From Dipteronia dyeriana (lineage: Eukaryota > Streptophyta > Magnoliopsida > Sapindales > Sapindaceae): a stretch of DNA of 64,000 bases. The stretch is taken from NCBI GenBank assembly GCA_032871835.1, contig CM065299.1:83829652-83893651 (forward strand), given 5' to 3'. Of this stretch, positions 5,900-61,420 are shown piece after piece (positions within the stretch are counted from its first letter, which is position 1; every line of letters starts with the position of its first letter). Made by a program: the position numbers and the translations under genes. The notes below the pieces were generated by a model. The model was given only the letters and a program-made list of their open reading frames with translations. It did no database searches and was not told where the DNA came from.

Positions 5900-8800
5900 T
5901 CATGACACTGAGTGGCGCCACCGCTTCTGTAACATGAATCGATTTTCTGAGTTAGCCTTGCCACCTACAGGCTTGAGACCGTTGATCCTGAAGAGGGCAT
6001 TGAGCTTGCTTAATTTCTTCGTAAACGATTTGAAGAGCTTGTTAGCAGGATGTGACCTTACCAGCTCTTGTTTCATGGACACATGGTCTTTTTCGAGGTC
6101 TGTTAGTCTCATTCTCATTCTTGCAACTTCAAGCTTCAGCTCCCTGTTCTCTCTTCTCACTGATGCATAGTTGTCTCTTGGAGAAATGGCTCCGCTCCCT
6201 GCGCCACTGCTTGATCTTTGAGGGAATTGTCCATTATTGATTGCACCGAAGAAGAACTGGTTGTGTCCACCACTCATTGCATTTCGAAGCCTGATTTGTT
6301 CGAAATAGAGTACCTGTACTGCCATCTGCACTGGTAGCCTCTCATTCTGTGCTGCATGACTACATGCTTCTTGTGATAGTTTTTGACAGTCAATTGTCTT
6401 GCACAACCTGTATCGCTCTGAGTCCTTCATATTCGGATGAACCTACAAACACAATCACAATTGTTGTTCACAATCTAGCAACAAAATTCTAAACATAACT
6501 TCCAACACAAGTATAATTGAATGCTGCTTACTTTGAGGAAGATATCCACAGCTCTGTACAATCCATCGCTTACTATACGAGCGTGGTCTGGAAGTAGTTC
6601 AGCTAATGCTATGAATTTTGATGGCAACAGGTTGGAGTCTAGTGCAACTTCTGCTAGATAATTGTCCAACAACTTTGATACTTTGAGAATTGAACTCTGC
6701 TTAGGAGATCCAGGGCTGTCAAAATCATAAACCATTTCGCTTTCATCTCTCAAGTGATTATTATTATTATTGTCTTCATCGTCATCCTCATCCAAGTTGA
6801 GAAATATTGAGAAGATCCTCAACATTGAATCTGTATCGTACAATGTGCTGTGGTTGCTCCCGTGTGAGTTTGCCGGGATAAGAATGTCTTCAAGGATTGC
6901 CTGATCAAGTTGAAGACCAATACGCCTCTCTAAATCGGATCTGCAAGAGGTAATAGCAGATGCTGCTATTGCTGTTTTCAAAAGACTTGAAAGAAATGCC
7001 ATTGGAACCGGACTCTTTCTTGATTGTGTTGGTAACAAGCCCACCATTGTTTCAACAATGATCCTTTGTCTCTTCTGCAACTCCAAATCCAGGAGGCTTC
7101 CTTTCACCAACTGAGGGTCTCTGACAACAAGACCTTGTAGAGAATTATGTGCATAATTTATCAAAATCTTGCTGATCAAATCCTGTTTTAGTCCCTTTGA
7201 TTTTACTGCGGATAGAACTCGTTGGAAGAAATCAAGATTAAGCATTGCTAGAGACTTTCCCCACCAATCCGATGGTGTTTCAGGTTCGATGTTTGTGGTA
7301 GTTTTTGCAGGGAAGTTATGATCAAGCTTTAACAAACCAGAGGTGAGCTGTTCTTTACATGCATTATTTGCTATCGCATTGATAAGCCTGTTAATCAGAT
7401 TGATCTCATCAGATACCGGTAAGAGGCTTTCACAACGATGAAGAACGGATATAGAGTTCGATATGTTTGGGAAAACCATCTCCTGTAGATAAGCTTCAGC
7501 TCTAGTCTCCAGGTTTTTCTCAGCAAAATCTTCTGTCATTTCCAGGAAATGTGCAGAACAATGTAGCATCGCAACATTCGACAAGGTAATCTCAACGTTT
7601 ACTCCGTAGCAGAACTTTGCAGCCTGCTCAAATGACTCTGATCCACCCGGAACTGCTGATAGATTAATGCGTGAAATTTTTGTCTCCTTCGATTCCAATA
7701 ACAGTTTTCGAATTCTTCCACTTCGAGACACTAGAGGGAACTGCAAGAGAATCGCAGTAAAAGCCTTACTAAATCTCCAACAATAAGACGATACTAGACC
7801 TAAAATTGTTCGGTTCATTGAAAAAGGACTATGATGTTCATAGTTTTATTTCTAATAATTAGATACTATATTAAGGATACCAACCGGTTGTAATTCAATT
7901 TAGATATGACTAAAATTGCATACAGGAAAGAACCGATAGTGAATTTCATTAGTTTTGCATCGATAAGTTAGATACATGGATGAATTTATAATAAAAAACA
8001 AACTTGATTAGCAGAATGTGTTGGTAGAGCAAGAAACAGATCCCTCCTCGTACCTTATGAAGTGCAAAGTTTGATGATCCTACTTCGATAGTGAGGTCAC
8101 TAGACACATCCGAAATTGGCCTGCAAAACAGTAGAACATTGAATGGATGAAAACTGGTCCTCCATAGAGACAAAAAAAAAAAAATCTTGAAAATGGAACA
8201 ATGAGTAAAGACAGGAAGAAAGAAACACAAGGAAACATACATTCTTGTAATGGACAATAATTTAGGAACCATGCAGGAGCTTCTACTGAAGGCTTGCAAC
8301 CCCATGTTTGAACTCATTATTATGATCTAAACAAATTCATTAGTCTTCTGCAGAAATTATTCATTTTTTATATATACGGTTTAATGATCTTCCTCAAAGC
8401 TTGTGGACAGAATGATCTGTCTTGATTTTATGTTTCGACACAAGTGGCCCAGATATTAGACATACGACTCAATTATTAAATCATATCACTAGCTTCCAAG
8501 CACTAGAACAGGCAAATAAGATCATATTTGAAGGTAAAAAAATGCTTTGGTTGTACAAAGAAGTGGAAAATAATCTGGCCAGATACTAATGTGACAATTT
8601 TGTTGCATTATGTATAATCTGTCAAATACATATTGATGAACAGATGTGTACGGCACTTTCATACAAGTTTGAGGGCCTATTGAAAGTCAGAGCTTGCAAA
8701 ATTATTGAGAGGCAAGACAGGATATGAGAATAAATGAGTTCAGTCTCGTGACAGTGTCAATTGGTTAGAGAACTTGAAGGGTCAAGTACTTCAGAGGTTT

Positions 8801-16499: not shown

Positions 16500-17029
16500 T
16501 GTCACAGGGTTAAAGTTTACACAGCACACCCGTGTGGCACTTAGCAAATTTTGTGAGAATGTTCCTAAGTAAGCCTTACAAGAGAGATTTGAGAGAAGAG
16601 AGTAGAAGAGCTTGAATGGAAAACAAAGTTTGTATTGATATGAAGGAAGCTTTACAATGCTTTGGATACTAGAATACTTGAGTTTCTAGGATGATTTACA
16701 AATGAGAGGGGTTGGTTATTTATAGGTGAGTCACCTTCTTAAGGAATATTCTAGATTAATCTAGTCTAATAGTGGAGATTAAGTCTCTAGACTATTCTAC
16801 ACCTAGCTAGAATACTCTACATGTATTTACATGCCTTTACAAGGTTCTAGATTATTCTACACCTATCTAGCTAAGTACAAGAATGGTGTAGAGATGGTTG
16901 GATTGCTAGAGACTTCCAGAAGCTTAACCAATGCTGGAATTGTGGAGAAGTCTCTAGAATCTTCCAGGAGCTTGGCATAGTTGTGGCAGTTGTTGGGCTC
17001 CTAGGCTTGATAGCTTGCGGGCGGTGTCA
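16500..17029 (-). repeat. 3' LTR of the gag-protease element
   Basis: The 530-bp sequence matches 19041-19566 closely throughout, for example AAGCCTTACAAGAGAGATTT and GAGACTTCCAGAAGCTT. On the minus strand it follows the polypurine tract. Confidence 0.87.
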
Positions 17030-19040: not shown

Positions 19041-19566
19041 AATCACGGGGTTAAAGTTTGTGCAGCACACCTGTGCGGCACTTAGGCAAATTCTATGAGA
19101 ATGTTGCTAAGTAAGCCTTACAAGAGAGATTTGAGAGAAGAGAGTAGAAGAGCTTGAATGGAAAACAAAGATTATATTTCTATAAAGAAAGCTTTACAAT
19201 GCTTTGGATACTAGAATGCTTGATTTTCTGATTTACAAATGAGAGGGGTTGGCTATTTATAGGTGAGCCACCTCCTTAAGGAATGTTCTAGATTAATCTA
19301 GTCTAATAGTAGAGATTAAGTCTCCAGAATATTCTACACCTAGCTAGAATACTCTACATGTATTTACATGCCTTTACAAGGTTCTAGATTATTCTACACC
19401 TATCTAGCTAAGTACAAGAATGGTGTAGAGATGGTTGGGTTGCTAGAGACTTCCAGAAGCTTGACCAATGCTGGAATTGTGGTGAAGTATCTAGAATCTT
19501 CCAGGAGTTTTGCATAGTTGTGGCCTTTGTTGGGCTCCTAGGCTTGATAGCTTGCGGGTCGTGACA
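19041..19566 (-). repeat. 5' LTR of the gag-protease element
   Basis: This is the right-hand LTR in window coordinates and the 5' LTR on the minus strand, since the primer-binding site follows it. It matches 16500-17029 with scattered substitutions. Confidence 0.87.
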
Positions 19567-20242
19567 GCGCGCTGCATTTACATTATCACCGGTGATTAAA
19601 ATTTCATTTCATTTCATTTACTACTGACATTGAGCTAAAACATTCTTTCAAAATATGTATATCATAATACATTTGCAAAGCGCAAAAGAACCAAACATTT
19701 AAGCATTTAAACAATAAGTTCTAGTAAGTGTAAAACTTATTCAAAAAGAATTAGGTAACGAATATATAAGTAAAGACTACATAAGTAGAAAATGGGTTTA
19801 TTTACATATATAAACATATATAAAAAAACTATTTTAGATCATAACAATATGATACATAAATCTAGTTTCTAAGAAAACATTTGTGCAATTACATACTATA
19901 CAAAAAGGAAAAATCTACTTAACTCTTAGCAAACCTCATAAAAGCAATCGCCCACGAAACTAACAATCCAAACCTTACCCTAAAATCATATATTTATATC
20001 TAGGACTGGAATAAGGTCTGACATATCGCTTCACAACCGAAATCCTAATGCTAGAAGTAACCAATGTCATTTTTCGAAAACCGAGTAGTGTCTGATTTAG
20101 AACTTTTAATTTATTACACAAGCATTGGAAAATTCTAAAAATTTGTATACGCATCTTACATAAACATATCTATTGACATAGAAAAGTTCAGAATTTAAAA
20201 AAATCAGTAAGTACCTTAAAAGATTTTAAATGTCGTAGTATT

Positions 20243-21594
20243 TGATTAAAACTGAAAAGTGTATGTTTACTAAGGGATAATATCATAATTTTACACTTCC
20301 AATATGATTAATTCCCCAATTTAGACATAATTTCGTTCGCTCGCTTAAATATATGTGTTGTGTAGTAATCAGTGTATTTTTCTTTGTATTTCGAAGGTAA
20401 TTCGATCAATTCAGAATTATGAAGTAGTCAATGGAGAAGTTAGATGGAAAAACAAACATCGTTTTAAAGTTTAGAACGTCAAAAACCATAGGAAGACCAC
20501 GAAGGGTATTTTTATAATTTTGACTATTCACTGTTTATATTTGACTTTCACTGTTCACAGTTGACTTTCACTGATCCTGATGATGTGGCACATTCATATT
20601 GGGCCAAACTGCGAGTGCACCATACACGCGACTGTAGAGAATCATATTCTAGAAGCCGGTTCACTTTTCACTATTCACTTCACGGATGCGTTACTGTTCA
20701 CTGTTCACTTCACGGATGCGTACTGTTCACTATCATTGTTCACTGATGACATGGCAAAATCAGGACGCTTCATTCTAAATTCATCTGATGGTCAATTTTC
20801 ATCCGTATTTTGTATAAATAGGTGGCCTATCCTCCATAATTTTCATATTCTGAATCCAAATATAATATTAGATTTGTGAAATTCTCTCTCTTTTGTTCTC
20901 AAATTCTCAGTTTAAATAAAATAGTTATTTTCTAGTTAAATTATGTCTTGCTAATTTTATATAGTTGGGGTCAAATGTGATACTATTGGTATGGGAAATA
21001 TGATCCAAATATGGTAAGTTTATTATTTTTATGTTTTTTCCCTTCTGATCTTTGTAGAGTTTTTGACTCACTGTAGATAGACAGATATTGTCTAGCACAG
21101 TGGGTACTTTTACCCATATCTATCAAAGAATGGTTTCTCCCCTATGATCTTTGTGGAGTTTTTGACTCACTATAGACAGACAGATATTGTCTAGCACAGT
21201 GAGTACTTTTACTCATATCTATCAGATAGTGGTTTATCCTCTCTAATCTTTGTGAAGTTTTGACTCACTGTAGACAGACAGATGTTGTTTACCCCAATGA
21301 GTACTTTTACCCACATCTATCAGAGAGTGGTCAGTGGAGTGGAATATCATCTCATTAATCTGGACTAAATATTAATAATTGGATCATAATCGAATTACCA
21401 ACAGTGGATCCCTTAGCCCTAGTATTAATTTTAATTGATTTTCATTTTATAACAATCTTAGTAATTAATCTAGATAATTAATTCTACAAGGAAAAGTGAA
21501 CAACCTCCCTGTGGCTCGACCCGGTCTTACCGGTTAATTTATTACTATGACACTCTTATACTTGAGAGTATGAACACTTTTTTAGGACGTGTCA
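20243..21594 (+). repeat. 5' LTR of the Athila-like element, 1352 bp
   Basis: It starts TGATTAAAACTGAAAAG and ends GGACGTGTCA. It holds short CACTGTTCAC/CTTCACGGATGCG repeats at about 20520-20750 and three tandem ~98-bp units at about 21047-21340. The 3' LTR has only two of these units. Confidence 0.88.
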
Positions 21595-21600
21595 AGTTTT

Positions 21601-21618
21601 TGGCGCCGCTGTCGGGGA
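21601..21618 (+). promoter_or_regulatory. Primer-binding site of the Athila-like element
   Basis: TGGCGCCGCTGTCGGGGA lies 6 bases after the 5' LTR. It is the TGGCGCC-type primer site widespread in plant Athila/Tat Gypsy elements. Confidence 0.8.
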
Positions 21619-22143
21619 GGTAAGTCCGCCTTTTCTTTGTAGAAGTAATTTCCTTTTAATTTTATTTTAGTTTTGCTGTTTTTTCTTCTATCTTCTTTGT
21701 TATTGTTTTGTATTCATTTTGCATCACTCATCTCAATCATAAACTTCATCTACTTAAAAAAAAAAAACACTTGTAATCATTAATCATATTTTTGCATTTT
21801 AGTCATTCAATTTTTTATTTGCATTTTAGCTTAGATCTAGTTTGCATTTGCATATAAATCATTTTATTTTTTATTTTTGCATATCAGTCCCTGTAATTAT
21901 TGCATTTTCACTTTAGTCCCTATACTTATAATTATTTGCACTCTTACCCCAACACTTGTGTATATTTGCATTTACACCCCTAGAATTTTGCATCTTATTA
22001 TTTTCATTACTTTTTCTTTATTTCCTTCATTTTTGTGTATTTCACCTCCATGAACCCTTATTAAATTTGCATGAGACTTTGGTCTCGAACATCTAATGGT
22101 AGAATAATTAGGAGATCACAATCACCCACATTCATCAACAACA
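21619..22143 (+). other. Untranslated leader of the Athila-like element
   Basis: The leader is T-rich, with many TTTTATTT and TTGCATTT words, and has no coding frame. Long untranslated leaders before gag are usual in this lineage. Confidence 0.6.
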
Positions 22144-23226
22144 TGGCTGAAAACCCACATAGACATCAAACACGAAACTAAGCCAAGAACCTTTTAGACA
22201 ATATTGACAACATATCTCTACACAGCAACCATCCGCCTTATGTTGACCATGACCAACACATTAACCAAAATCCACCTAGAACTCTTAGAGACTATATGAA
22301 TCCCACACGTACTGGAGCACCTTCATGCATAGCTTTCCCAGCAAATGCAACACACTTTAATTTTAAACCGGGAATCATTCAACTTTTACCCAAATTTCAC
22401 GGTCTTGAATCTGAAAACCCATATTTGCATCTTAGGGAGTTTGAGGAAGTCTGTAACACTTGCACTGACCAAAATGTTAGTATGGATATAATCAGGCTTA
22501 AGTTTTTCCCTTTTCCCTTTTTCCTTAAAAGATAAGGCTAAAACTTGGTTACAAAATCTTAGGTCAGGATCAATCCAAACTTGGAATGATATGCAACAAC
22601 AGTTCTTAAAGAAATTTTTCTCACCTCATAGAACAAACTCTCTTAAAAGGAAAATCATTTCATTTTCCCAAAAACCTGGGGAAACACTTTACCACTGTTA
22701 GGATAGGTTCAAAGAGTTGTTTAATGTCTGTCCACATCACTGTTTTGAAACATGGAGGATAGTGTCACATTTCTATGAGGGACTCACACCCCAAGGTAGA
22801 CAAGTCATTGAAATGATATGTAATGGGGAGTTCAGTGACAAAAATCCTGAAGAAGCAATTGAATATCTTGATCATATCGCCGAAAGTGCTCAAAATTGGG
22901 ACACCATTGGTTCCTATGAGTCCATGAGCAAACCAAAACCATATTTATCTAGTGGAGGCATTTACAATCTTAGGGAAGATCATGACCTTCAAGCTAGATT
23001 CGCATCCCTAGCTAGGAAAGTTGAAACTTTAGAAACTAAAAAGAGTGAACATGTAAAATCTATACAAGAAATCGCATGCCATGTTTGTGATTCTAATGAT
23101 CATTTCACTCATAGTTGCCTAACTTTACCAGCCATAAAAGATTGCCTTTATGAACAAGCCAATGTTTTGTACACTTTCAAAAAGCCAAATTCTAACCCAT
23201 ACTCACAAACCTACAATCCTGGTTAA
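22144..23226 (+). pseudogene. Athila-like gag, broken
   Basis: The frame begins at the ATG at 22144 and has an early stop after about 13 codons. It resumes through RTLRDYMNPTRTGAPSCI and LLPKFHGLESENPYLHLREF, shifts frame near 22520, and has another stop near 22698. From 22717 it continues as LFNVCPHHCFETWRIV, FYEGLTPQGRQVIEMICNG and a CCHC-like knuckle CHVCDSNDHFTHSC. These blocks match Athila-type Gag in order. Gag would form the particle. At least two stops and one frameshift make it non-functional. Confidence 0.85.
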
Positions 23227-24020
23227 AGAAATCATCTTAACTTTAATTGGAGGAACAACAATCAAGCCCAATCTTCACAACCACCAGGTCTATCACATCC
23301 ATAAACACACCAGAATTTCCAAAACCCACAAGGTTATGCACCTTATGTCCTACCATCTAGGAAAAACTTTAAAGACACTTTGTACTCATTCATTGAGAAG
23401 CAAGAATCCATTAACAACCAAACTGCACAAACCTTGATAAATGTTAAAGATACTTTGGCAAAGATTGCTTCTACACTCACCATACAAGAAAAAGGTAAGT
23501 TTCCATCTCAACCACAACCAAATCCCAAGAGTCATTCAAGTTCCTATGATAATAACCAACGCCCAGATCATGTCAAATCAATTACACTCTTTATAGTGGT
23601 AAGGTCATCGAAAAACCTATTCTTGAATCTGGTAAAAATGATGATGAGTCATTTTCCAAGGGTAAGGAAGGGGTTGATGAAACCACTGTTAACGAAGAAA
23701 TAATTGAATCCCCACCTACACTTCCATATCCTCTAGCTCTTAAAAATTCACAGAAATTAATGCATCCCCCAGGGATTTTTGAAATTTTCAAACAGGTAAA
23801 GATCAATATCCCTTTGTTGGATGCAATCAAACAGGTACCTTCCTATGCCAAATTTTTGAGGGATCTGTGCACTGTGAAAATGAAGCATCAGGTAAGAAAG
23901 AAAGCCTTTATGGCTGAACAGGTAAGTTCCATTCTTTCCATTAAAAATGTTTTGAAATATAAGGATCCTGGCTATCCCACTATTTTCTACACAATTGGTA
24001 ACTGTAAAATTGAGCATGCT
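23227..24020 (+). pseudogene. Gag-protease linker of the Athila-like element, decayed
   Basis: Coding-like blocks in shifting frames include FKQVKINIPLLDAIKQVPSY and AKFLRDLCTVKMKH near 23760-23900. This is the conserved stretch between Gag and protease in Athila elements. Several frameshifts prevent a continuous frame. Confidence 0.7.
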
Positions 24021-24443
24021 TAACTTGACCTAGGTGCTAGTGTAAATTTGCTCACATACTCATTTTATCAGCGACTTAAACTTAGTGAGTTAAAGCCGAC
24101 TTCAACCACACTTTGTCTTGCTGATAGGTCAATTAAAATACCAAAAGAAATAGTGGAAGATGTGTTAGTATAAGTCGATAAATTTATCTACCCAGTAGAT
24201 TTTATTGTCTTGGAAACACAACCTGTGGTTAATTAGCACAAATCAATTCATGTTATATTGGGCCGACCATTTTTGGCTACTGCTAATGCCTTGATTAGTT
24301 GCAGGAATGGAATAATGAGCATGTCTTTTGGAAATATGGAAATTAAGCTTAATGTTTTCAACATGTCTAAGGAACCATTTGATGATGAAAATGTAGATGA
24401 AGATGTAGACATTATTGAAACCGTTGTTGAAGATCATGTTTAA
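24021..24443 (+). pseudogene. Athila-like aspartic protease, broken
   Basis: The active-site region reads LDLGASVNLLTYSF (D-x-G-A form) near 24026-24070. It is followed by LSELKPTSTTLCLADRSIK and the flap/second half VILGRPFLATANALI near 24250. At least two stops fall between the halves. The enzyme would cleave Gag-Pol. Confidence 0.8.
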
Positions 24444-24608
24444 AAGGATTCTTTTAACTCATCTGAATTTTGTTTGATCAATTCACCTGAGTTAAGCATG
24501 CATTCACATCTTGATGATTGTTTGTAGGTTGTCGAAGAAGAAGGAGACACTTCAGATTTTGAAGAATTGGAACAAACAGATGACGTGCCAGAAGAAAAAG
24601 CACCTTAA

Positions 24609-25433
24609 ATGGATTTGAAGCCCTTACATGAAGGACTTAAATATGCTTACCTTAGAGACAACCAGACCTACCCAATGGTAATCTCTTCTAACCTAACAAA
24701 AGAGCAAGAAGGTAAGTTGTTACATGTTTTAAAGAAAATTAAGAATGCAATTGGTTGGACTTTGAAAGATTTGAAAGGTATTAACCCATTGATTTGTTCA
24801 CATCGAATAAATTTAGAGGAAAATGCTAAAACATATCGACAACCCCAAAGAAGACTTAACCCATACATGAAAGAAGTTGTCAAGACTGAAGTCCTTAAAT
24901 TACTTGACGTGGGAATTATCTACCCTATCTTTGATAGTAAGTGGGTGAGTCTTACACAAGTTGTGCCAAAAAAATCTGGAATCACTGTTATTAAAAATGA
25001 AAAGGGTGAGTTAATTCCAACTCATATTCCATCTAGTTGGCGTATGTGCATTGATTATAGAAAATTAAATGATGCCACTAGAAAATATCATTTTTCCATT
25101 CCATTCCTTGACCAAATTTTAGAAAGAGTAGCAGGACGTCCCTACTACTGCTTTCTTGATGGGTATTCAGGATACTATCAAATTCCCATTACATTAGAAG
25201 ACCAAGAAAAAACCACATTCATATGTCCCTTTGGAACCTTTGCATTTAGAAGAATGCCATTTGATTTGTGTAATGCTCCGGCCATATTTCAACGATGCAT
25301 GCTAAGCATTTTTAGTGACATGATTGAACATTGTTTAAAGGTCTTTATGGATGATTTAACTGTGTTTGAGAATTCTTTTGATGAATGTCTAAATAATTTG
25401 GAAAGAGTCTTGAAACGTTGCATAGAAAAATGA
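24609..25433 (+). pseudogene. Athila-like reverse transcriptase, near-complete block
   Basis: A 274-residue open segment holds the RT palm and fingers in order: HRINLEENAKTYRQPQRRLN, WRMCIDYRKLNDATRKYHF, LDQILERVAGRPYYCFLDGY, TFICPFGTFAFRRMPFDLCN and the catalytic FMDDLTVF. It ends NLERVLKRCIEK* where intact relatives read on to RNase H. The catalytic Asp pair is preserved. It is part of a broken Pol, so it is scored as a pseudogene although this block itself is open. It reverse-transcribes element RNA in particles. Confidence 0.88.
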
Positions 25434-25463
25434 CTTATGCTTAACTAGGGAAAATGTCATAAT

Positions 25464-26486
25464 ATGACCACATCTGGAATTGTTTTGGGTCATGTTGTGT
25501 CATCTAATGGAATCGAGGTTGATAAGGCAAAAATTGAAGACATTTCAAAGTTACCATCACCACAAACTGTCAAAGATGTGCGGTCATTTTTAGGGCATAC
25601 AGGATTTTATAGGAGGTTTATTAAAGATTTCAGTGTCATATCTAAACCACTTTGTAACCTCTTATTAAAAGATGCAAAGTTTGAATGGACACAAGAGTGT
25701 CAAGAGTCCTTTAAAAAGATAATTGACCTTTTAACATCTGCTCCTATCATGCAATCCCCTGATTGGTCATTGCCTTTTGAATTGATATGTGATGCGAGTG
25801 ATTTTGTTGTTGAAGCTGTCTTAGGAAAAAGAAGAGAAGGTAAGCCTTTTGTGATTTATTACGCAAGTAAAACTTTGAATAGTGCACAAATGAATTACAC
25901 CACCACTGAGAAAGAATTATTTGCTGTGATATTTGCATTGGATAAATTTTGGTCATACTTGATTGGCGCTTCAACCATTGTTTTTACTGATCACGCTGCT
26001 TTGAAGTATTTAATGTCTAAACAGGATGCAAAGCCAAGATTGATTCGTTGGATTTTGTTGCTACAAGAATTCAAACTCACAATCAAGGACAAAAAAGGTG
26101 CCGAAAATGTCGTTGCAGACCATTTATCACGACTCACCGCTGAGTCGTCATTTGATAAAGCACCCATCAATGATTCTTTTCCTGATGATCTTTTATTCTC
26201 TATCATAACTTTGCCTTGTTATGTTGACATTGTTAATTATCTTGCAACAGGAATGATGCCACTCGATTGGAATGCACAGGACAAAAAGAAATTTTTGACC
26301 GAGGTAAAACGTTTTTACTGGGATGACCCGTACTTATTCAAATATTGTCCTGATCAAATTATTCAACGGTGTATTCCAAGCAATGAGGTAAGTAATGTCA
26401 TTGAATTTTGTCATTCTGAAGCATGTGGTGGTCATTTTTCGTCAAAGAAAACGGCTGCAAAAATCTTACAGTGTGGATTTTATTAA
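25464..26486 (+). pseudogene. Athila-like RT connection, RNase H and start of integrase
   Basis: The 340-residue open segment starts with [20 protein letters not shown]. It includes [18 protein letters not shown] and an RNase H block from [19 protein letters not shown] (catalytic Asp in CDAS) through [20 protein letters not shown] and [20 protein letters not shown]. It ends in the integrase H/zinc region ([20 protein letters not shown]). A stop at 26486 cuts the integrase. Confidence 0.87.
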
Positions 26487-27422
26487 CCCACCTTGTTTAA
26501 AGACGCTCATGCATTCTGTAAAACCTGTGAAAATTGTCAAAAGTTAGGATCCATTTTCTAGCGAAACATGATGTCTTTAAACCCCATTCTTGTCATTGAA
26601 ATATTTGATTGTTGGGGAATTGATTTTATGGGTCCATTTCCACCGTCATTTGGATTTTTGTACATTTTGGTTGCCGTTGATTATGTGTCAAAATGGGTCG
26701 AGGCAATTCTTTGTCGAAATAATGATCACAAAACAGTGATCAAGTTTTTAAAGGAAAATCTTTTGAGTCGATTTAGAATCCCTTGAGCCATTATCAGTGA
26801 TGTAGACAAACACTTTTGTAACAAACCTTTTGAGTCTTCAATGAAGAAATATGGAGTCACACACAAAATTGCTACACCATACCACCCTCAAACAAGTGGT
26901 CAAGTTGAGTTAGCGAATAGTGAGATAAAACATATCTTGCAGAAAACGGTTAACCCTGATCTAAAAGATTGGTCTATTAGACTAAATGATGCGCTTTGCG
27001 CTTACCGCACTGTATTCAAAACATCTTTGGGTATGTCTCCTTATCGTTTAGTTTATGGAAAACCTTGCCACTTACCTGTTGAACTTGAGAAAAAAGCATA
27101 TTGGGTCATTAAAGCTTTCAATTCTAACCTAAATGTTGCTGGTGAATTGCGCAAGTTGCAAATAAATGAACTTCAAGAATTAAGAAATGATGTGTACGAA
27201 AATGAAAAAATTCTTAAAGAAAAATCTAAAACCTTTCATGACAGACGAATTTCAAGAAGATCATTTGAAGTTGGTCAAAAGGTTTTGCTTTATAATTCTC
27301 GACTTCATTTATTTCCTAGCAAATTGAAATCAAAATGGAATGGTCAATTTGTTGTGAAACACGTGTATCCATATGGTGGCCTTGACATTGAGAATCCTAT
27401 GAATGATAATGTGTTTAAATAA
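26487..27422 (+). pseudogene. Athila-like integrase, broken
   Basis: The zinc part continues as HAFCKTCENCQK, then the catalytic core starts at [17 protein letters not shown] (first Asp). A stop follows SRFRIP, then [20 protein letters not shown] (second Asp) and [20 protein letters not shown] (catalytic Glu) follow. The C-terminal part contains [20 protein letters not shown] and [18 protein letters not shown]. The D,D35E residues are recognisable. Integrase would insert the cDNA; the stops disable it. Confidence 0.86.
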
Positions 27423-27728
27423 ATGGACAACGTGTGAAACCATTCTTAGAAAATACAGATTTTCAAAAAGACTCTACCGTCCTTTTTGACCCTTGTTACA
27501 AAGGTAAGTAAACAAATCTTTTTCTTTTGACTTTATTTGTGTTTGCAATTATTATTTTTGTTTTTGTTCGCTTTTACGTTTTGAATTTTTGCAGGATTAA
27601 TTTCTAGGTTCAATTTTTCTTGGTGTGTTTTGCTATATAACCCCGGTTAAGTGGCGGATAACGGTACTCCTTGACAATTCCAGTCGGTTTAATTCAGTTT
27701 CCCAAATAACTGGTCCCCAAAACAAGGC

Positions 27729-28280
27729 ATGGATGAAATTTTTATAAACCTGCGAAAATATTTTCCACTGTTGCCCCAAAATGCTCTGAAAAAGATTTAC
27801 AAAGCACGTTCTAAAAGATTACGCTTACTGATGATAAACAACAATCCTGTTGAAATTCTCTGGTTGATCGAAGTTAAGGTACGTCTAGCAGGTGGGTCTG
27901 CTAATTCATTTATATCTTACAGGCCTGGTTTTGGAAGAAGTAACCTTGCAAAAAAATGAAGAGCTAAGAAGTTAGGGGTTACTTGTCACAAATGTGCACG
28001 CACAACTTGCAACACAAGTTGTCGTTCTTTAGGAATGGTGTCTAATAATCGGGAAGATAAAATTTTATTCATTAGGCATGGTTTGCGTAGGGAGTCATTG
28101 GATAATATTCTAACGACTCTTGATGCACATCCTAGTGGATATGTGCAAATGACAATTGGCCGATTATGGCCACAATTTCGAAAATAACATGTACAATATA
28201 GTATTGGGAATCTGACTTTAAAAGACCCCGTTTGCCAATTTATAAGAAAATTTGATGGGAAGCATATCCCCAACCCATAG
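27729..28280 (+). pseudogene. Unrecognised accessory reading frame with cysteine cluster
   Basis: One frame runs from the ATG at 27729 to about 28280, interrupted by stops at 27957 and about 28186. It encodes about 184 residues. Blocks include MDEIFINLRKYFPLLPQNAL, a cysteine/histidine stretch VTCHKCARTTCNTSCRS, and RESLDNILTTLDAHPSGYVQ. The uninterrupted frame before and between stops suggests it was once a protein. It lies between integrase and the LOG-like gene, where Athila elements often have an env-like gene, but I see no signal peptide or membrane segment. CX2C plus CX3C spacing hints at metal binding (inference). Function unknown. Confidence 0.5.
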
Positions 28281-28579
28281 AGGGCGTTGAAACCGTTTCT
28301 AGACGTAAAACCAGAGGAAGATGTGAGCCAAAATCACAACTACCAGTAAATATTCTTTTGTTTTTATTATCTTTTTCCTTCCGTATTTAATTTCTTTTGT
28401 AATTAGTGTTTTTTACTTTTGATTTTTGAACCATTTGGATCTAATATCATTGACAAATACGCCACCCTATACATATAGGTGTATCATTGTGTTACCTTTT
28501 CAGGATCTATAGGCATTTGTTTTCCTTTTTGCTTCAAGCACTCATAAACATTCAAAATAAAAATTTAGAGAGTGCATAA

Positions 28580-29234
28580 ATGACATCACCTTCAATTAAA
28601 CGATTCACAAACATTTGTGTGTTTGGTGGCACTAACTATGGGAAATACAGAGAGTTTGTTGAGGTTGCAACTCATCTTGGTAAGGTTTTGGCTGAGAGAA
28701 AAATACACCTAGTGTATGGAGGAGGTCACTTGGGATTAATGGGGTGTGTTTCGTGAGCTGCACGAGATGGAGGTAGTCAAGTTTAGGGTATTGTCCCAAA
28801 ACTTATGGCCGCATCAGACATCATCGGAAAGAAAAACGACGAGGAGGTAGTTGTTTCAGGTATGCCTGAAAGATTGACTGTTATGTTACATCATGTTGAT
28901 GCGTTTAAAGCTTTGCCATGTGGTTTTGGAACCTTAGAAGAAATCTTTACAATGGCATCCTGGGCACAACTACACATCCATGGGAAACCCATCGGTTTGT
29001 TGAATGTTAATGAATTTTATGATGGTTTGCTTTCATTTCTTGATCATGCTTAGAAAAAATTATTACATTCCACCTTCAATCCGAAAAATCTTTATCTCTA
29101 CTTCAAGTCCTCATAAGCTGATTGACCAGTTACAAGCTTTCAATTATGAGCCAGATCCTTCAACCTCCAAAATCGATTGGTCCACTGATGAAGAGAACAA
29201 GAAACGCAGAATTGATCTGAATCTCAATTTGTGA
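28580..29234 (+). pseudogene. LOG-like: LOG-like cytokinin riboside 5'-monophosphate phosphoribohydrolase, captured and broken
   Basis: LOG enzymes release active cytokinin bases from cytokinin nucleotides in the cytosol and nucleus. From the ATG at 28580 one frame gives RFTNICVFGGTNYGKYREF, VLAERKIHLVYGGG and HLGLMG, then VVVSGMPERLTVMLHHVDAF, LPCGFGTLEEI, WAQLHIHGKPIGLLNV and FYDGLLSFLDHA. These are the LOG Rossmann-type motifs in order; the family PGGxGT motif has Cys for the first Gly. Stops occur at about 28754 and 28784, and a frameshift near 29050 is needed to join the C-terminal part (IPPSIRKIFISTSSPHKLID) that ends IDLNLNL. The total of about 217 residues is full length. Plant LOG genes normally have several introns; none is here, which points to capture through mRNA. 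It lies in sense orientation inside the Athila-like element. Confidence 0.88.
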
Positions 29235-30461
29235 TTGTCCCATGTTTTTAATGCATTTTATTTTCCTTTATTTTGTATTTCTTTTGTTGTTTTACAGGAT
29301 TTTGTTGTCTTTCAAGTTGTTCAGGTAATATCTTCTAAACCTTACCTCTTTCTAAAGACATTGGGGACAATGTCTAGTTCTGGTTGGGCGGAAGAGATAG
29401 TTGATTCAATAAATTTTGTTTTTTTAAAAAAAAAAAACTAACTTCTGACCTTTTTTTTCCTGTAAAGATGGTTGAGTAAGGAGATCTTTTAGATACTTCT
29501 GAGACGCATCTTTGTAGTTCTGATGCATTTTTTTTCCTCTCTTCTGACTATTCAAATGTATAAACTCTCCATTGTGATATCATTGACTAATCCTTTTGTT
29601 CATTAAGTCATCTTGAGAAATTTTTGGAACTATTCTAGACACACACGCATATTGACACGTGATTATGTGTAGTAAGTTGAGATTTTGCGATATTTAGCTC
29701 TGAAACATCATTCAAGGGTAACAACCAAAGGCAGTGGTCTTGTTTAAAAATATATTTAGTAATAATAATAATAATAATTTTATGTGTTGTGACCAAAACT
29801 CTTAATTAGTAGCCGGGCCTCATGCCTCAGTAAGCATAGAGTGTTCAAGCAAAACGGTGGAGTCTAGATAAGAATAAAGTACAGTTTCGCAGCTTCTTTA
29901 AATCGAGCAATTAAGTCTGAGGGGTGCTTCAACACCTAATGCCCTAAGACCAACTGGTTTGGGAGTCATTGACTCAAAGCTCGTTACACGGGTTAAAGAG
30001 AAAGCTTAAAGGAATTGTACTAAAAAAAAAAACATCTGCAATTCGAGTAATTAAGCCCGTAAGAGTGTTTTAACACTTAATGCCCTAAAGCTAATTGGTT
30101 TGGGAGTCATTGGCCTAAAGCTCGCTACATGGATTAAAGATGGAATGTTTGTTTCCAATTTTGTTATATTAAAAAAAAAACCAAAAAAAATATAAAAAGG
30201 AAAAAAGAAAAAAAAAACTACTGTCTAAGGAAGAAGCCCTGATGAGATTTCAGAATGAAAATGTTGTTTGATTTCAATTGAATTTCATAGTTATCGTGTT
30301 GATCTTTATTGAGCACAAGAAAGTTTGATTGATAACTCAATTGATGACTGATTGTCAAAGGGTGAGAAAAGAGGTATGGGAGAGTTTGTCTATTTAGTAG
30401 TTTAGAGATTTGAATTTGAGTTTTTACTATTTTCGCTTTAGTTGTTAGGGACTAGCAATAA
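29235..30461 (+). other. 3' non-coding region of the Athila-like element
   Basis: It contains an inverted repeat AGACATTG-GGGA-CAATGTCT (29356-29375), and a region around 29900-30140 where about 105 bp is repeated with a spacing near 141 bp (TTTGGGAGTCATTG, AAGCTCGCTACATGG). A-rich runs occur at 30010-30030 and 30170-30220. No coding frame is seen. Confidence 0.65.
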
Positions 30462-30474
30462 GCTGGTTGAGGGG
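30462..30474 (+). promoter_or_regulatory. Polypurine tract of the Athila-like element
   Basis: GCTGGTTGAGGGG directly precedes the 3' LTR start TGTTATTAAC. The position fits plus-strand priming, although the tract is short and interrupted by pyrimidines. Confidence 0.6.
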
Positions 30475-31689
30475 TGTTATTAACACTGAAAAGTTTATGT
30501 TTACTAAGGGATAATATTATAATTTTACACTTCCAATATGATTAATTCCCCAATTTAGACATAATTTCGTTTGCTCGCTTAAATAAATGTGTTGTGTAGT
30601 AATTAGTATATTTTTCTTTGTATTTCAGAGGTTATTCGATCAATTCAGAATTATGGAGAAGTCAATGGAGAAGTCAGATAGCAAAACAAACATCATTTTC
30701 AAGTTTAGAACGTCAAAAACAATAGGAAGACCACGAAGGGTATTTTTGTAATTTTGACTATTTACTGTTCACAGTTGATTTTCACTGTTCATGTTGATGT
30801 GGCACATTCCTATTGGCCCAAACTGTGAGTGCACCATACACGCGGTTGCAGAGAATCATATTCTAGAAGCTGGTGCACTGTTCACTATTCACTTCACGGA
30901 TGCGTACTGTTCACTTCACGGATGCGTTACTGTTCACTGATCACATGGCGAAATCTGGACACTCTATTCTAAATTCATCCGATGGTCAATTTTTATCCGT
31001 ATTTTGTATAAATAGGAGGCCTCTCCCCATAATTTTCATATTCTGAATCCAAATCTGATATTAGATTTGTGAAATTCTCTCTCTTTTGTTCTCAAATTCT
31101 CAGTTTAAATAAATTAATTATTTTCTAGTTAAATTATGTCTACCTAATTTTATATAGCTGGGGCGAAATGTGATACTGTTCATATGGGAAATATGATCCA
31201 ATTATGGTAAGTTTATTATTTTTATGTTTTCTCCCCTCTTATCTTTGTGGAGTTTTTGACTCACTGTAGATAGACAGATATTGTCTAGCACAGTGGGTAC
31301 TTTTACCAATATCTATCAGAGAGTGGTTTCTCCCCTCTGATGTTTGTGGAGTTTTTGACTCACTGTAGACAAACAGATATTGTCTAGCACAGTGAGTACT
31401 TTTACCCACATCTATCAGAGAGGGGTCAGTGGAGTGGAATACCATCCCATTAATCTGGACTAAATATTAATAATTGGGTTATAATCGAATTACCAACAGT
31501 GGATCCCTTAGCCTCAATATTAATTTTAATTGATTTTCATTTTATAACAAACTTAGCAATTAATCTAGATAATTAATTCTACAAGGACAAGTGAACAACC
31601 TCCTTGTGGTTCGACCCGGTCTTACCAGTTAATTTATTACTATGACACTCTAATACTTGGGAGTATAAACACTTCTTTAAGACCTGTCA
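30475..31689 (+). repeat. 3' LTR of the Athila-like element, 1215 bp
   Basis: It starts TGTTATTAACACTGAAAAG and ends AAGACCTGTCA, followed by the GTATT target duplication. It matches the 5' LTR with scattered substitutions and lacks one ~100-bp tandem unit. Confidence 0.88.
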
Positions 31690-33126
31690 GTATTCATGGC
31701 TGTCTGATAATAGACAGTCTCGAATAATACTTCCATTAGAATTTTTAAAAATTGTAAATTCATTAAAGTGATATGAAATCTTTACCAAAACATAAATAAC
31801 ACATATTAGGTTTGCAAATAAAAGTTTCAAAGTGAAATCATTCAAATAAATACTTTAAAAATATTTATACGTTTGGTTATTATAATCTGTCTAATACTGA
31901 ACAGATTGTAGAACCCGTTTTTGAAAATTCATATTTAATTTAATAAAACCCTAAAAATATTGAGATAAATTCTGGAACTGTTTTAACCTGTATTTAAAAT
32001 CTGTACCAAATTTAAACAAGTATAACATAGAAAAACATATTTTCGAATCTAGATCATACTACAAAAACTGATATTTTCAACAATACTGTTTTAAACTCAA
32101 AAATTCGTAAAAAATACAATACTCATTATTTTGAAACAAAACAAATTTATTTGGAACCCTTGGTAGTCTAGTTAATAATATCAAAACAAAAATCACAAAA
32201 ATATCATATATAAATTAACTATAAATTTAGTAATAATCACTGGTCAGCCCTAAATACAATGATATCAGAAGATGGGAGCTCAAAACTCACTATAATAAGC
32301 TTATAGGGTTACTACACAATCAAAACACTAATATTGATACCTCAAAACGTTTAAGAAATACAGAAAAACATTTAAAGCGAAAAAAAACACACCTTGAAAA
32401 CACCTTTCTTCTTCTTGCTTGAAACAAGTTTTTGTTAAAAGTATGAGAGTCTATTTTTTTTTCTCTTATTCTTTCCTCTCATTGGCCGTTCAAAAACATT
32501 TTAGGGTTATGTTTTTTTTCAAAGATATTAAAAGAGAAAACAAGAGCCTTTAAGTATAGGAGTTTTAAAAAAGGTAGGATTCCCAATCAAAATCTGAATC
32601 CCTATAATTATTTTATTATTAATATCATTTAAAAGAAAGAGTTATATAAGGAATAAAACACTTATTCAACTCTAAGTTTTATTTTAAAACACTAACCCCC
32701 ATAAAACTACATAAATTACAAAAACAAAATGTGTTTTTAAAATCTAAATGCTTAGGGAAACAAATATTCTAAAAATCAGAATTTGGGTCTTACATACAAT
32801 TTCACTGATTTTACTAAAATAGTCAAATCCCTTTAAATGTGGAATTGACTTATTTCAAATCACTACAAATGTGGAAATTGATTTATTTCAAATCCCTTTA
32901 AATGTGGAAATTGATTTATTTCAAATCATTGAAATTGACCTATTTCAAATCCCATGAAATTTATTTGTAATAATGCTAGAGAATTAATAGTCTACTGCCA
33001 AAATACTCAACCTTAATACCGGTTGATTTAGTTGTCTTAACAAAAAGAAACTGAATGAATGTGTTCCTATTTATATTAATATTATTATTAACACTAATAA
33101 AGAATGAATAAAATTTGGGTCTTACA

Positions 33127-59046: not shown

Positions 59047-59790
59047 CTATAGAAAATGTGTCATATCTCTCATCCCTATATTCTCTAGATATCCATCAAA
59101 ACTCTTTTGTGGAAGAACCTTTGTAAAGGGATTCGCTAAATTATCTACTGACGCGTTCTTGGTAATCGTCATGTCACCCTTATGCACAATTTCCCTTAGA
59201 AGGTGATACTTCCTTTCAATGTGTTTCCCTCTCTTATGACTTTTTGGTTCTCTCGAATTAGCCACTTCTCCACTATTGTCACAATAGATAGTGATCTGCT
59301 TATTCGCATCAGGAACCACTTCCAAGTCAATCAAGAATTAGGCGAGCCATACAGCCTCTCTAGCCGCTTTGCATGCGGCAATATACCCGGCTACCATGGT
59401 GGAATCAACAATACAAGATTGCTTGATACTCCTCCATATGACTGCCCCTCCTCCAATAGTAAACACAGATCCTGATGTTGATCTCATGGAGTCAGAATCT
59501 GACTTAAAATCAGAATCTGTATACCCAACGAGATTTAAATCTCCTCCATAGTATACAAGCATATAATCTCTCGTTCTCCTAAGATATTTGAAAATATGCT
59601 TGACTGCCATCCAGTGATCAGGATCAGGTTTCAATTGAAACCTACTAACTATGCCCACAACAAAACAAATATCTGGTCTAGTGTAGAGCATTGCATATAT
59701 GAGACTTCCAACTGTTGATGCATATGGAACCTTACTCATGAATTGCTCTTCATGCTCATTCTTAGGAACTTGTTCCTTAGAAAGTTTGAT
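59047..59790 (-). pseudogene. Copia RNase H of the minus-strand element
   Basis: Minus-strand blocks in order are KVPYASTVGSLIYAMLYTRP, DICFVVGIVSRFQ, LVGYTDSDFKSDSDS (catalytic Asp) and VDSTMVAGYIAACKAAREAV. A stop splits it at about 59335, then YCDNSGEVANSREPKSHKRG, KHIERKYHLLREIV and LANPFTKVLPQKSF follow. It ends shortly before the polypurine tract. Confidence 0.85.
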
Positions 59791-60520: not shown

Positions 60521-61420
60521 TCAAACTTTGTTTTTGAACATAGAATCAATTTCGGATTGCATTACCTTTTGCAAATAGTGACAATCAACATCTTCCATTG
60601 CTTCATTGTACGTATAGGGATCATCGTCGTCCGAGAGATTCTCTACAGATTCTCCTAGACAGATGTATCTTTCGAGTTGTCTACTAACCCTCCTACTATG
60701 AAGAGGTATGGTAAATTGTTGATCTTGTGTAGGTACTGAACTTATAATTGGGCTTGATTGTGAAACCTCTTGTGGAATTGTATCTCCTGAAAGCTCATTC
60801 AGGACAATTATACTTTTAGGCACATAATTATTCATATAGTCCTCTTCTAGAAATTTAGCATTTGTTGAAACAAATACATTAAGATCTAAAGGACTATAGA
60901 AATAATATACTTTTTTTCCTTTTGGATACCCTACAAATATGCATGTTTCTGAATGGGACTCCATCTTTTCTATCTTTCCTTTTAACACGTGTGCAGGACA
61001 TCTAAATATCCTTAAGTGTTGTAAACTAGGCTTTCGCCCGGTCCATAACTTATGTGGTGTTTTAGGAACTGACTTAGATGGTACATTGTTTAGAATGTAT
61101 ATTGCGGTTTGTAAGCATATCCTCAAAAGAATTCTAGAGCGTTGAATAACTCAACATAGGCCTAACCACTTCCAAAAGAGTTCTATTTTTCTTTTCTGCC
61201 ACCCTATTTTGTTGAGGTGTGCCTGGTGTAGAAAACTGAGAAATTATCCCATTATCAATAAGATATTGCTGAAACTCACCAGATAGATATACTCCACCAC
61301 GATCAGACCTCAAGATTTTTTTACGTTTCTCAAGCTGATTTTCAACTTCAGCTTTAAATACTTTGAACATGTCAAAGACATCCGACTTATGTCTCCTGAG
61401 ATACACATAGCCAAATCTTG
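60521..61420 (-). pseudogene. Copia integrase of the minus-strand element, broken
   Basis: The upstream part reads YLRRHKSDVFDMFKVFKAEV, LRSDRGGVYLSGEF (integrase Asp) and STPGTPQQNRVAEKKNRTLL (catalytic Glu region; Arg replaces the usual Gly after Asn). After a stop, the C-terminal region reads NNVPSKSVPKTPHKLWTGRK and CIFVGYPKGKKVYYFYSPLD and ends near QKVMQSEIDSMFKNKV. Frame breaks lie at about 61130. Confidence 0.85.

Follow-up and report, generated by a model that had tools for sequence, protein, structure and literature searches.

The window analysed here, a stretch of 64,000 nucleotides from Dipteronia dyeriana, contains an LTR retrotransposon with a reading frame for LONELY GUY (LOG), the cytokinin-activating phosphoribohydrolase, and the question raised by this locus is whether LOG is a chance passenger of one element or a gene of an element family. 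LOG here forms part of an Athila-like Ty3/gypsy family and stands at the position held by the env-like gene in related elements. It belongs to one clade apart from the sampled host LOGs, with a constrained core and, in most members, a C-terminus made of a basic stretch and LxLxL. That LOG is an inherited and selected component of the element family is considered the probable reading.

The Ty3/gypsy element spans 20243-31689 (11.4 kb; Table 1). The clear LTRs and the GTATT duplications reported in the initial annotation were both recovered, and Pfam matches place gag, reverse transcriptase, RNase H and integrase in that order between the LTRs, all in sense. The two LTRs differ at 91 of 1213 aligned sites (7.5%; K2P 0.079). 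Tandem units of about 98 bp lie within them, three in the 5' LTR (21031-21359) and two in the 3' LTR (31224-31454), and much of the 137 bp difference in LTR length is due to the additional unit in the 5' LTR. The primer binding site agrees in 16 of its 18 letters with what we take to be the 3' end of tRNA-Asp. Among the integrase matches, Integrase_H2C2 is weak (E=0.0018) and rve (E=8.5e-7 on 26562-26786) falls under its Pfam cut-off, while Pfam scans of the element pieces gave no match to a protease domain. Domain scans also gave no Pfam match for the coding-like region that follows the integrase, which may represent an env-like domain or a C-terminal domain of pol. An imperfect direct repeat (29924-29999 and 30065-30140, 83%) is present between LOG and the 3' LTR.

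Table 1. Features of the retrotransposon and its LOG frame (positions in the window)
Feature	Position	Strand	Basis or remark
Target-site duplication GTATT, left and right	20238-20242 and 31690-31694		Identical 5-mers outside both LTRs
5' LTR, 1352 bp, TG...CA	20243-21594	+
Primer binding site, tRNA-Asp type	21601-21618	+	Starts 6 nt after the 5' LTR
gag and presumed protease region, broken	22182-24443	+	Retrotrans_gag PF03732, E=1.3e-14 on 22492-22701
Reverse transcriptase and RNase H, integrase start (H2C2)	24609-26486	+	PF00078, E=6e-20; PF17917, E=2e-32
Integrase core region, split by a stop	26562-27422	+	rve PF00665
Post-integrase coding-like region	27693-28343	+	Common to the Acer LOG-bearing protein P0135
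Captured LOG frame, pseudogene	28580-29234	+	Between integrase and polypurine tract
LOG C-terminal tail KKRRIDLNLNL	29199-29231	+	Basic stretch and LxLxL (EAR-like)
Polypurine tract, GGTTGAGGGG before TG	30465-30474	+	Adjoins the 3' LTR
3' LTR, 1215 bp	30475-31689	+

The provisional label 'Athila-like' is based on primer site, domain order and position rather than on a reverse transcriptase tree; neither a chromodomain nor a second RNase H was found among the element pieces scanned, a trait common to other non-chromovirus gypsy lineages too. Diaspora and the Calypso group are reported to use a tRNA-Asp primer (PMC1142308), and Athila, Calypso and Diaspora as described there resemble the window element in being Ty3/gypsy elements with a primer binding site, of putative tRNA-Asp type in the window, shortly after the LTR and a long interval between pol and LTR. 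The window element differs from them in carrying LOG instead of the env-like gene and in a primer binding site that lies 6 nt, not 5 nt, past the LTR (PMC1142308).

Elsewhere in the window, an NPH3-family host gene lies on the minus strand at 5900-7845 (PF03000, E=6.7e-72 on 6475-7842), and its open frames 5900-6442 and 6475-7845 may be exons of one gene. Two repeats about 2.5 kb apart (16544-16991 and 19086-19528, 92-95% identical) could be the LTRs of an element that is short or has lost internal sequence. Copia-type remains occupy 60521-61150 and approximately 59344-59673 on the minus strand (retroviral SH3-like PF25597, E=2.6e-19); a stretch neighbouring them has a pol-like look and gives weak chance matches.

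The LOG frame begins at ATG 28580 and its C-terminal part is open up to the stop at 29232-29234. Its identity as LOG, judged on sequence, is beyond chance because PF03641 (Lysine_decarbox/LOG) matches 28787-29053 with E=7e-24 and the frame is 77-85% identical to five annotated Dipteronia LOG-like proteins, which are no closer among themselves (74-86%) than to the window LOG. PF18306 on 28580-28753 (E=1.3e-5) scores 25.3 bits where its cut-off is 26.3, and among solved structures Arabidopsis At2g37210 (2a33) is the best match to the 28787-29053 piece. Pfam matches and element anatomy thus bear out the initial description of a nearly full-length frame, in sense, between integrase and polypurine tract. 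The catalytic motif reads PCGFGTLEE, with PCG for PGG, the conserved Arg is kept, and the protein ends in LNLNL, matching LxLxL.

The two stops and one frameshift initially counted in LOG equal the least-lesion path through it; in frame there are three stops (codons 59, 69 and 158), the frame change adjoining the third. On the least-lesion path LOG has 3 lesions in 218 codons (1.38 per 100) and gag-pol 17 in 1747 (0.97), a difference that is not significant with such small numbers (p=0.48), and two non-coding stretches have 4.4 and 4.6 lesions per 100 codons. LTR divergence, with a transition weight of 4 as the author's choice, predicts 0.86 new stops in LOG since insertion, compared with the two on the least path and three in frame. 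Since its decay is about that of gag-pol, the LOG frame was probably open or nearly so when the window copy inserted; this copy of LOG is now dead.

Host plant LOG genes are normally multi-exon. The frame in the window aligns to uninterrupted relatives and no intron was found in it by that alignment, as the initial annotation had stated, and capture via a spliced mRNA is the presumed route. A separate retroposition of LOG into this copy alone was considered and rejected: no A run of at least 9 adjoins the frame, the nearest (29426-29437) lying about 190 nt past the stop, and the longest exact direct repeat flanking it, a T-rich 11-mer, is at chance level, with its length matched by 24 of 200 single-base shuffles. 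The same A run was dropped as a cDNA tail marking the capture, since it lies away from LOG. A poly-A tail or target duplications belonging to LOG itself, or the lack of LOG in any other element copy, had been named beforehand as grounds for abandoning capture within the family; the first two were not seen around the frame, and LOG is present in further copies of the family. Capture by an element therefore stands, but it is not peculiar to this one, as the LOG clade reaches Populus and Paulownia.

The 203 distinct LOG relatives considered are drawn from two protein-database listings (the best 120 of 1299 and the best 120 of 7999 scored) and, because both queries were retro-type, are biased to that type; 31 of those listed count as host-type, the type being assigned from the best BLAST match among selected references. 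Intact relatives, the recent existence of which had been suspected from the broken copy, are represented by uninterrupted retro-type proteins such as P0004 (PF03641, E=5e-41). For the trees, rows were hand-picked from the listed relatives, and in the 80-row tree long rows were trimmed by 20 residues to drop the tails. A single branch, with SH-aLRT 100 and a stem of 0.61, sets off all 66 retro-type LOGs in that tree (window 1, Dipteronia 5, Acer 2, Xanthoceras 6, Populus 6, Reevesia 9, Paulownia 3, unnamed contigs 34). On the other side are 14 host LOGs, mostly LOG7-type with one each from Populus and Paulownia, other host LOG groups being thinly sampled. The retro clade has support of 100/100 in a 39-row tree, the bootstrap of which is not fully settled.

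Constraint was assessed, after removal of five Dipteronia and three chimeric Xanthoceras rows, on the 120 listed retro-type rows of at least 200 aa, thinned at 80% identity to 33 rows. Median identity among the 33 is 61%, and the core has a gap in eight of them. At least 95% of rows share one residue at 55 of 214 sites, and at 47 of those 55 it is the host residue. Site entropies of retro and host rows are correlated (rho 0.59), a value reached in 0 of 2000 within-residue-class permutations (maximum 0.35), and the columns of the catalytic motif rank among the most conserved. PGGxGTxEE is present in all 31 host rows and in 140 of 169 listed retro rows, hence 29 lack the exact motif; the Arg pattern is kept in 149 of the 169 and both together in 123. 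In the AlphaFold model of the intact P0004 the LOG core matches 2a33 (TM 0.94 by target). We take the fixed sites and the entropy correlation to indicate purifying selection within the retro clade, although open frames are more likely than broken ones to be listed in databases; the rows with core gaps or without the exact motif speak against full health of the family.

The tail separates the two types further. With three chimeras excluded, LxLxL forms the C-terminal end of 96 of the 116 listed retro rows of at least 205 aa and of 0 of the 31 host LOGs, and 95 of the 96 have a basic stretch before it (at least three Lys/Arg in the preceding nine residues). By the author's sorting, ten of the 20 exceptions have Xanthoceras/Acer-type ends (KKRRLA, KKRKLA, KRRRLD); in five others the end is a near miss or altered, and another five are truncated or run-on models. 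LxLxL is also the EAR consensus (PMC6283911, PMC9956375), and of the two sequence forms accepted for EAR (LxLxL or DLNxxP) the window LOG has the first, as LNLNL. The tail of P0004 is probably flexible, its residues 196-217 being modelled with pLDDT < 50.

Such a tail might itself be what is selected, with the LOG fold as a non-enzymatic scaffold and the basic stretch and LxLxL recruiting or decoying a TOPLESS-type corepressor, a role that is compatible with an inherited element gene. The restriction of the tail to retro rows, the grouping together of tail-bearing rows in a tree built without the tail and the low confidence of the tail in the model would all fit. Selection on the tail without catalysis is nevertheless unlikely, given that the catalytic-motif columns are so well conserved and that the Acer/Xanthoceras branch, which is without LxLxL, still gives large Xanthoceras clusters.

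It is likewise unlikely that LOG is a functionless passenger, recently captured by this element or a few copies. The death of the window copy, the 29 retro rows without the exact core motif and the shortness of several annotated Dipteronia LOG pieces (120-170 aa) are what a passenger might leave, but a single clade with frames of 216-217 aa in 92 of 172 listed retro rows, a median identity as low as 61% after thinning and a site constraint resembling that of the hosts speak against one. Flank and LTR are, in addition, common to other copies: residues 149-170 of the Dipteronia protein P0001 match the window LTR (E=2.4e-6), so that LOG runs into the LTR, and P0002, also from Dipteronia, starts with the 39 nt preceding the LOG ATG.

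Four of the 203 listed proteins (P0001, P0002, P0122 and P0135) have element parts beside LOG in a comparison with the window element alone, which LOGs tied to more divergent elements would escape. In P0135 (Acer yangbiense) residues 1-140 match 27825-28343 with 55% identity (E=1e-50), and in P0122 (Xanthoceras) residues 140-187 match 23694-23837 (E=9e-12), a stretch of the gag/protease region that here lies between parts of LOG. All four look like gene models running across element parts, each with LOG joined to a different part. No pol-LOG fusion was found among 221 candidate proteins of approximately 912-2900 aa at E <= 1e-5, so LOG is probably a separate ORF or was split off by annotation. 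In viral contigs, 12 stretches fitted the pattern with the Populus LOG P0007 as query and none was confirmed, and a reverse transcriptase piece of the element gave no match. Among the matches listed, proteins from unnamed contigs are all retro-type and the 31 host-type proteins all come from named records, a split that weakly fits intronless retro-type genes.

Expansion of single-exon plant LOG genes, with elements inserted beside or around them, would account for relatives annotated as host genes (LOGL10 in Populus) and for the finding that the Populus, Reevesia and Paulownia proteins showed no window-element sequence. It is improbable in view of the position of the window LOG inside the element, with LTRs and target duplications outside it, and of the joining of LOG to different element parts in Dipteronia, Acer and Xanthoceras. 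Clusters at 90% identity are also large, with up to 39 members from Xanthoceras and up to 29 from Reevesia, although assemblies of one species may be pooled in them, and the YgdH domain is reported in LTR-element consensuses of Citrus and P. trichocarpa (PMC9289625). Linkage of LOG to elements in Populus is accordingly taken from published work and would extend by inference to Reevesia and Paulownia.

Within the retro clade Paulownia and Reevesia are neighbours (SH-aLRT 83) surrounded by rosid rows, and the Sapindaceae rows occupy two places. Paulownia is an asterid, and the order of the clade is at odds with plant kinship; horizontal spread is therefore possible, and one old capture with several element lineages would also give this order. 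That several element lineages each took a host LOG would suit this order and the two tail types inside the Sapindaceae, but it is very improbable with all retro rows in one clade with a stem of 0.61 and with a forced grouping of retro rows with the one sampled host LOG of the same genus rejected for both Populus (p-AU 0.00056) and Paulownia (1.7e-10).

The presence of such a domain in plant retrotransposons is already in print. PMC9289625, citing Steinbauerova et al. 2011, reports YgdH, a domain found in LOG proteins, in consensus LTR elements from P. trichocarpa and from two species of Citrus. Like the window element they are Ty3/gypsy elements with the LOG/YgdH domain inside; the LOG of the window element is nearest to those of Dipteronia. 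Presence is what the part of PMC9289625 on these elements reports, whereas position, origin, tail and constraint come from the present analysis, and the single clade and origin, the retention and the tail are what is new here. Among the publications listed by literature searches, none was seen to connect LOG to an EAR tail or to elements of the Sapindaceae.

Other captures offer partial parallels. An orchid Ty3/gypsy lineage likewise keeps a host-type enzyme domain, an m6A demethylase (PMC9289625); enzyme and plants are different, and a function is claimed in the title of that paper, whereas LOG is known here from sequence. Maize Bs1 is similarly an LTR element with transduced host sequence (PMC7264820), yet transduced sequences are described there as occurring in a single copy or a few, whereas LOG is common to a clade. 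Tpb1-1, a member of the Athila/Calypso/Diaspora lineage and by our reading of the figure key a Populus element, is described as holding in its pol-LTR interval an apparent retrogene, without an identifiable ORF, together with a poly-A of 47 bases (PMC1142308); that this retrogene is LOG is a guess. With plant LOG enzymes (At2g37210, 2a33; At5g11950, 1ydh; LOG7-type) the retro-type proteins share the fold and, for the most part, PGGxGTxxE and the conserved Arg, and they differ in having about 50% identity or less to 2a33 and 1ydh, a separate clade, an uninterrupted frame and the basic and LxLxL end. Related plant LOGs are reported to differ in product (PMC11593424).

If LOG is an inherited and selected gene of the element family, a host LOG transcript would have been captured once, long ago, transmitted inside elements by vertical descent, horizontal transfer or both, and kept because its product helps the element. 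Element RNA would lead to LOG translation in cells with an active LTR. A donor-like GAGGTAAGT lies directly after the primer binding site, and the best acceptor-like site in 27000-28700, scored with rough weights, is 76 nt upstream of the LOG ATG; spliced, env-like expression of LOG is a weak lead only, because AGGTAAGT is found at six places on the window's + strand, each of them inside the element. The enzyme would release free cytokinin from the riboside monophosphate, and free cytokinin could favour division or meristem identity, such that new insertions pass to progeny. The tail may bring LOG into the nucleus and into contact with TOPLESS-type corepressors. The enzymatic mechanism on its own is put at somewhat less than an even chance. 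More tentative is the full proposal that the lineage took up a cytokinin-activating LOG once in the distant past and kept it working, by descent or by spread, across rosids and asterids with a nuclear corepressor tail, making its own hormone signal where it replicates.

Gene models annotated as LOG-like in such genomes, 'LOGL10' of Populus among them, may belong to elements, and a check is advisable before any of them is counted as a duplication of a host LOG. Whether captured genes help the element becomes testable in this family, because intact copies exist and the LOG assay is simple. Should the enzyme be active, a hormone-activating function would be encoded by mobile elements of several plant families, giving a genome parasite a direct means of acting on cell fate.
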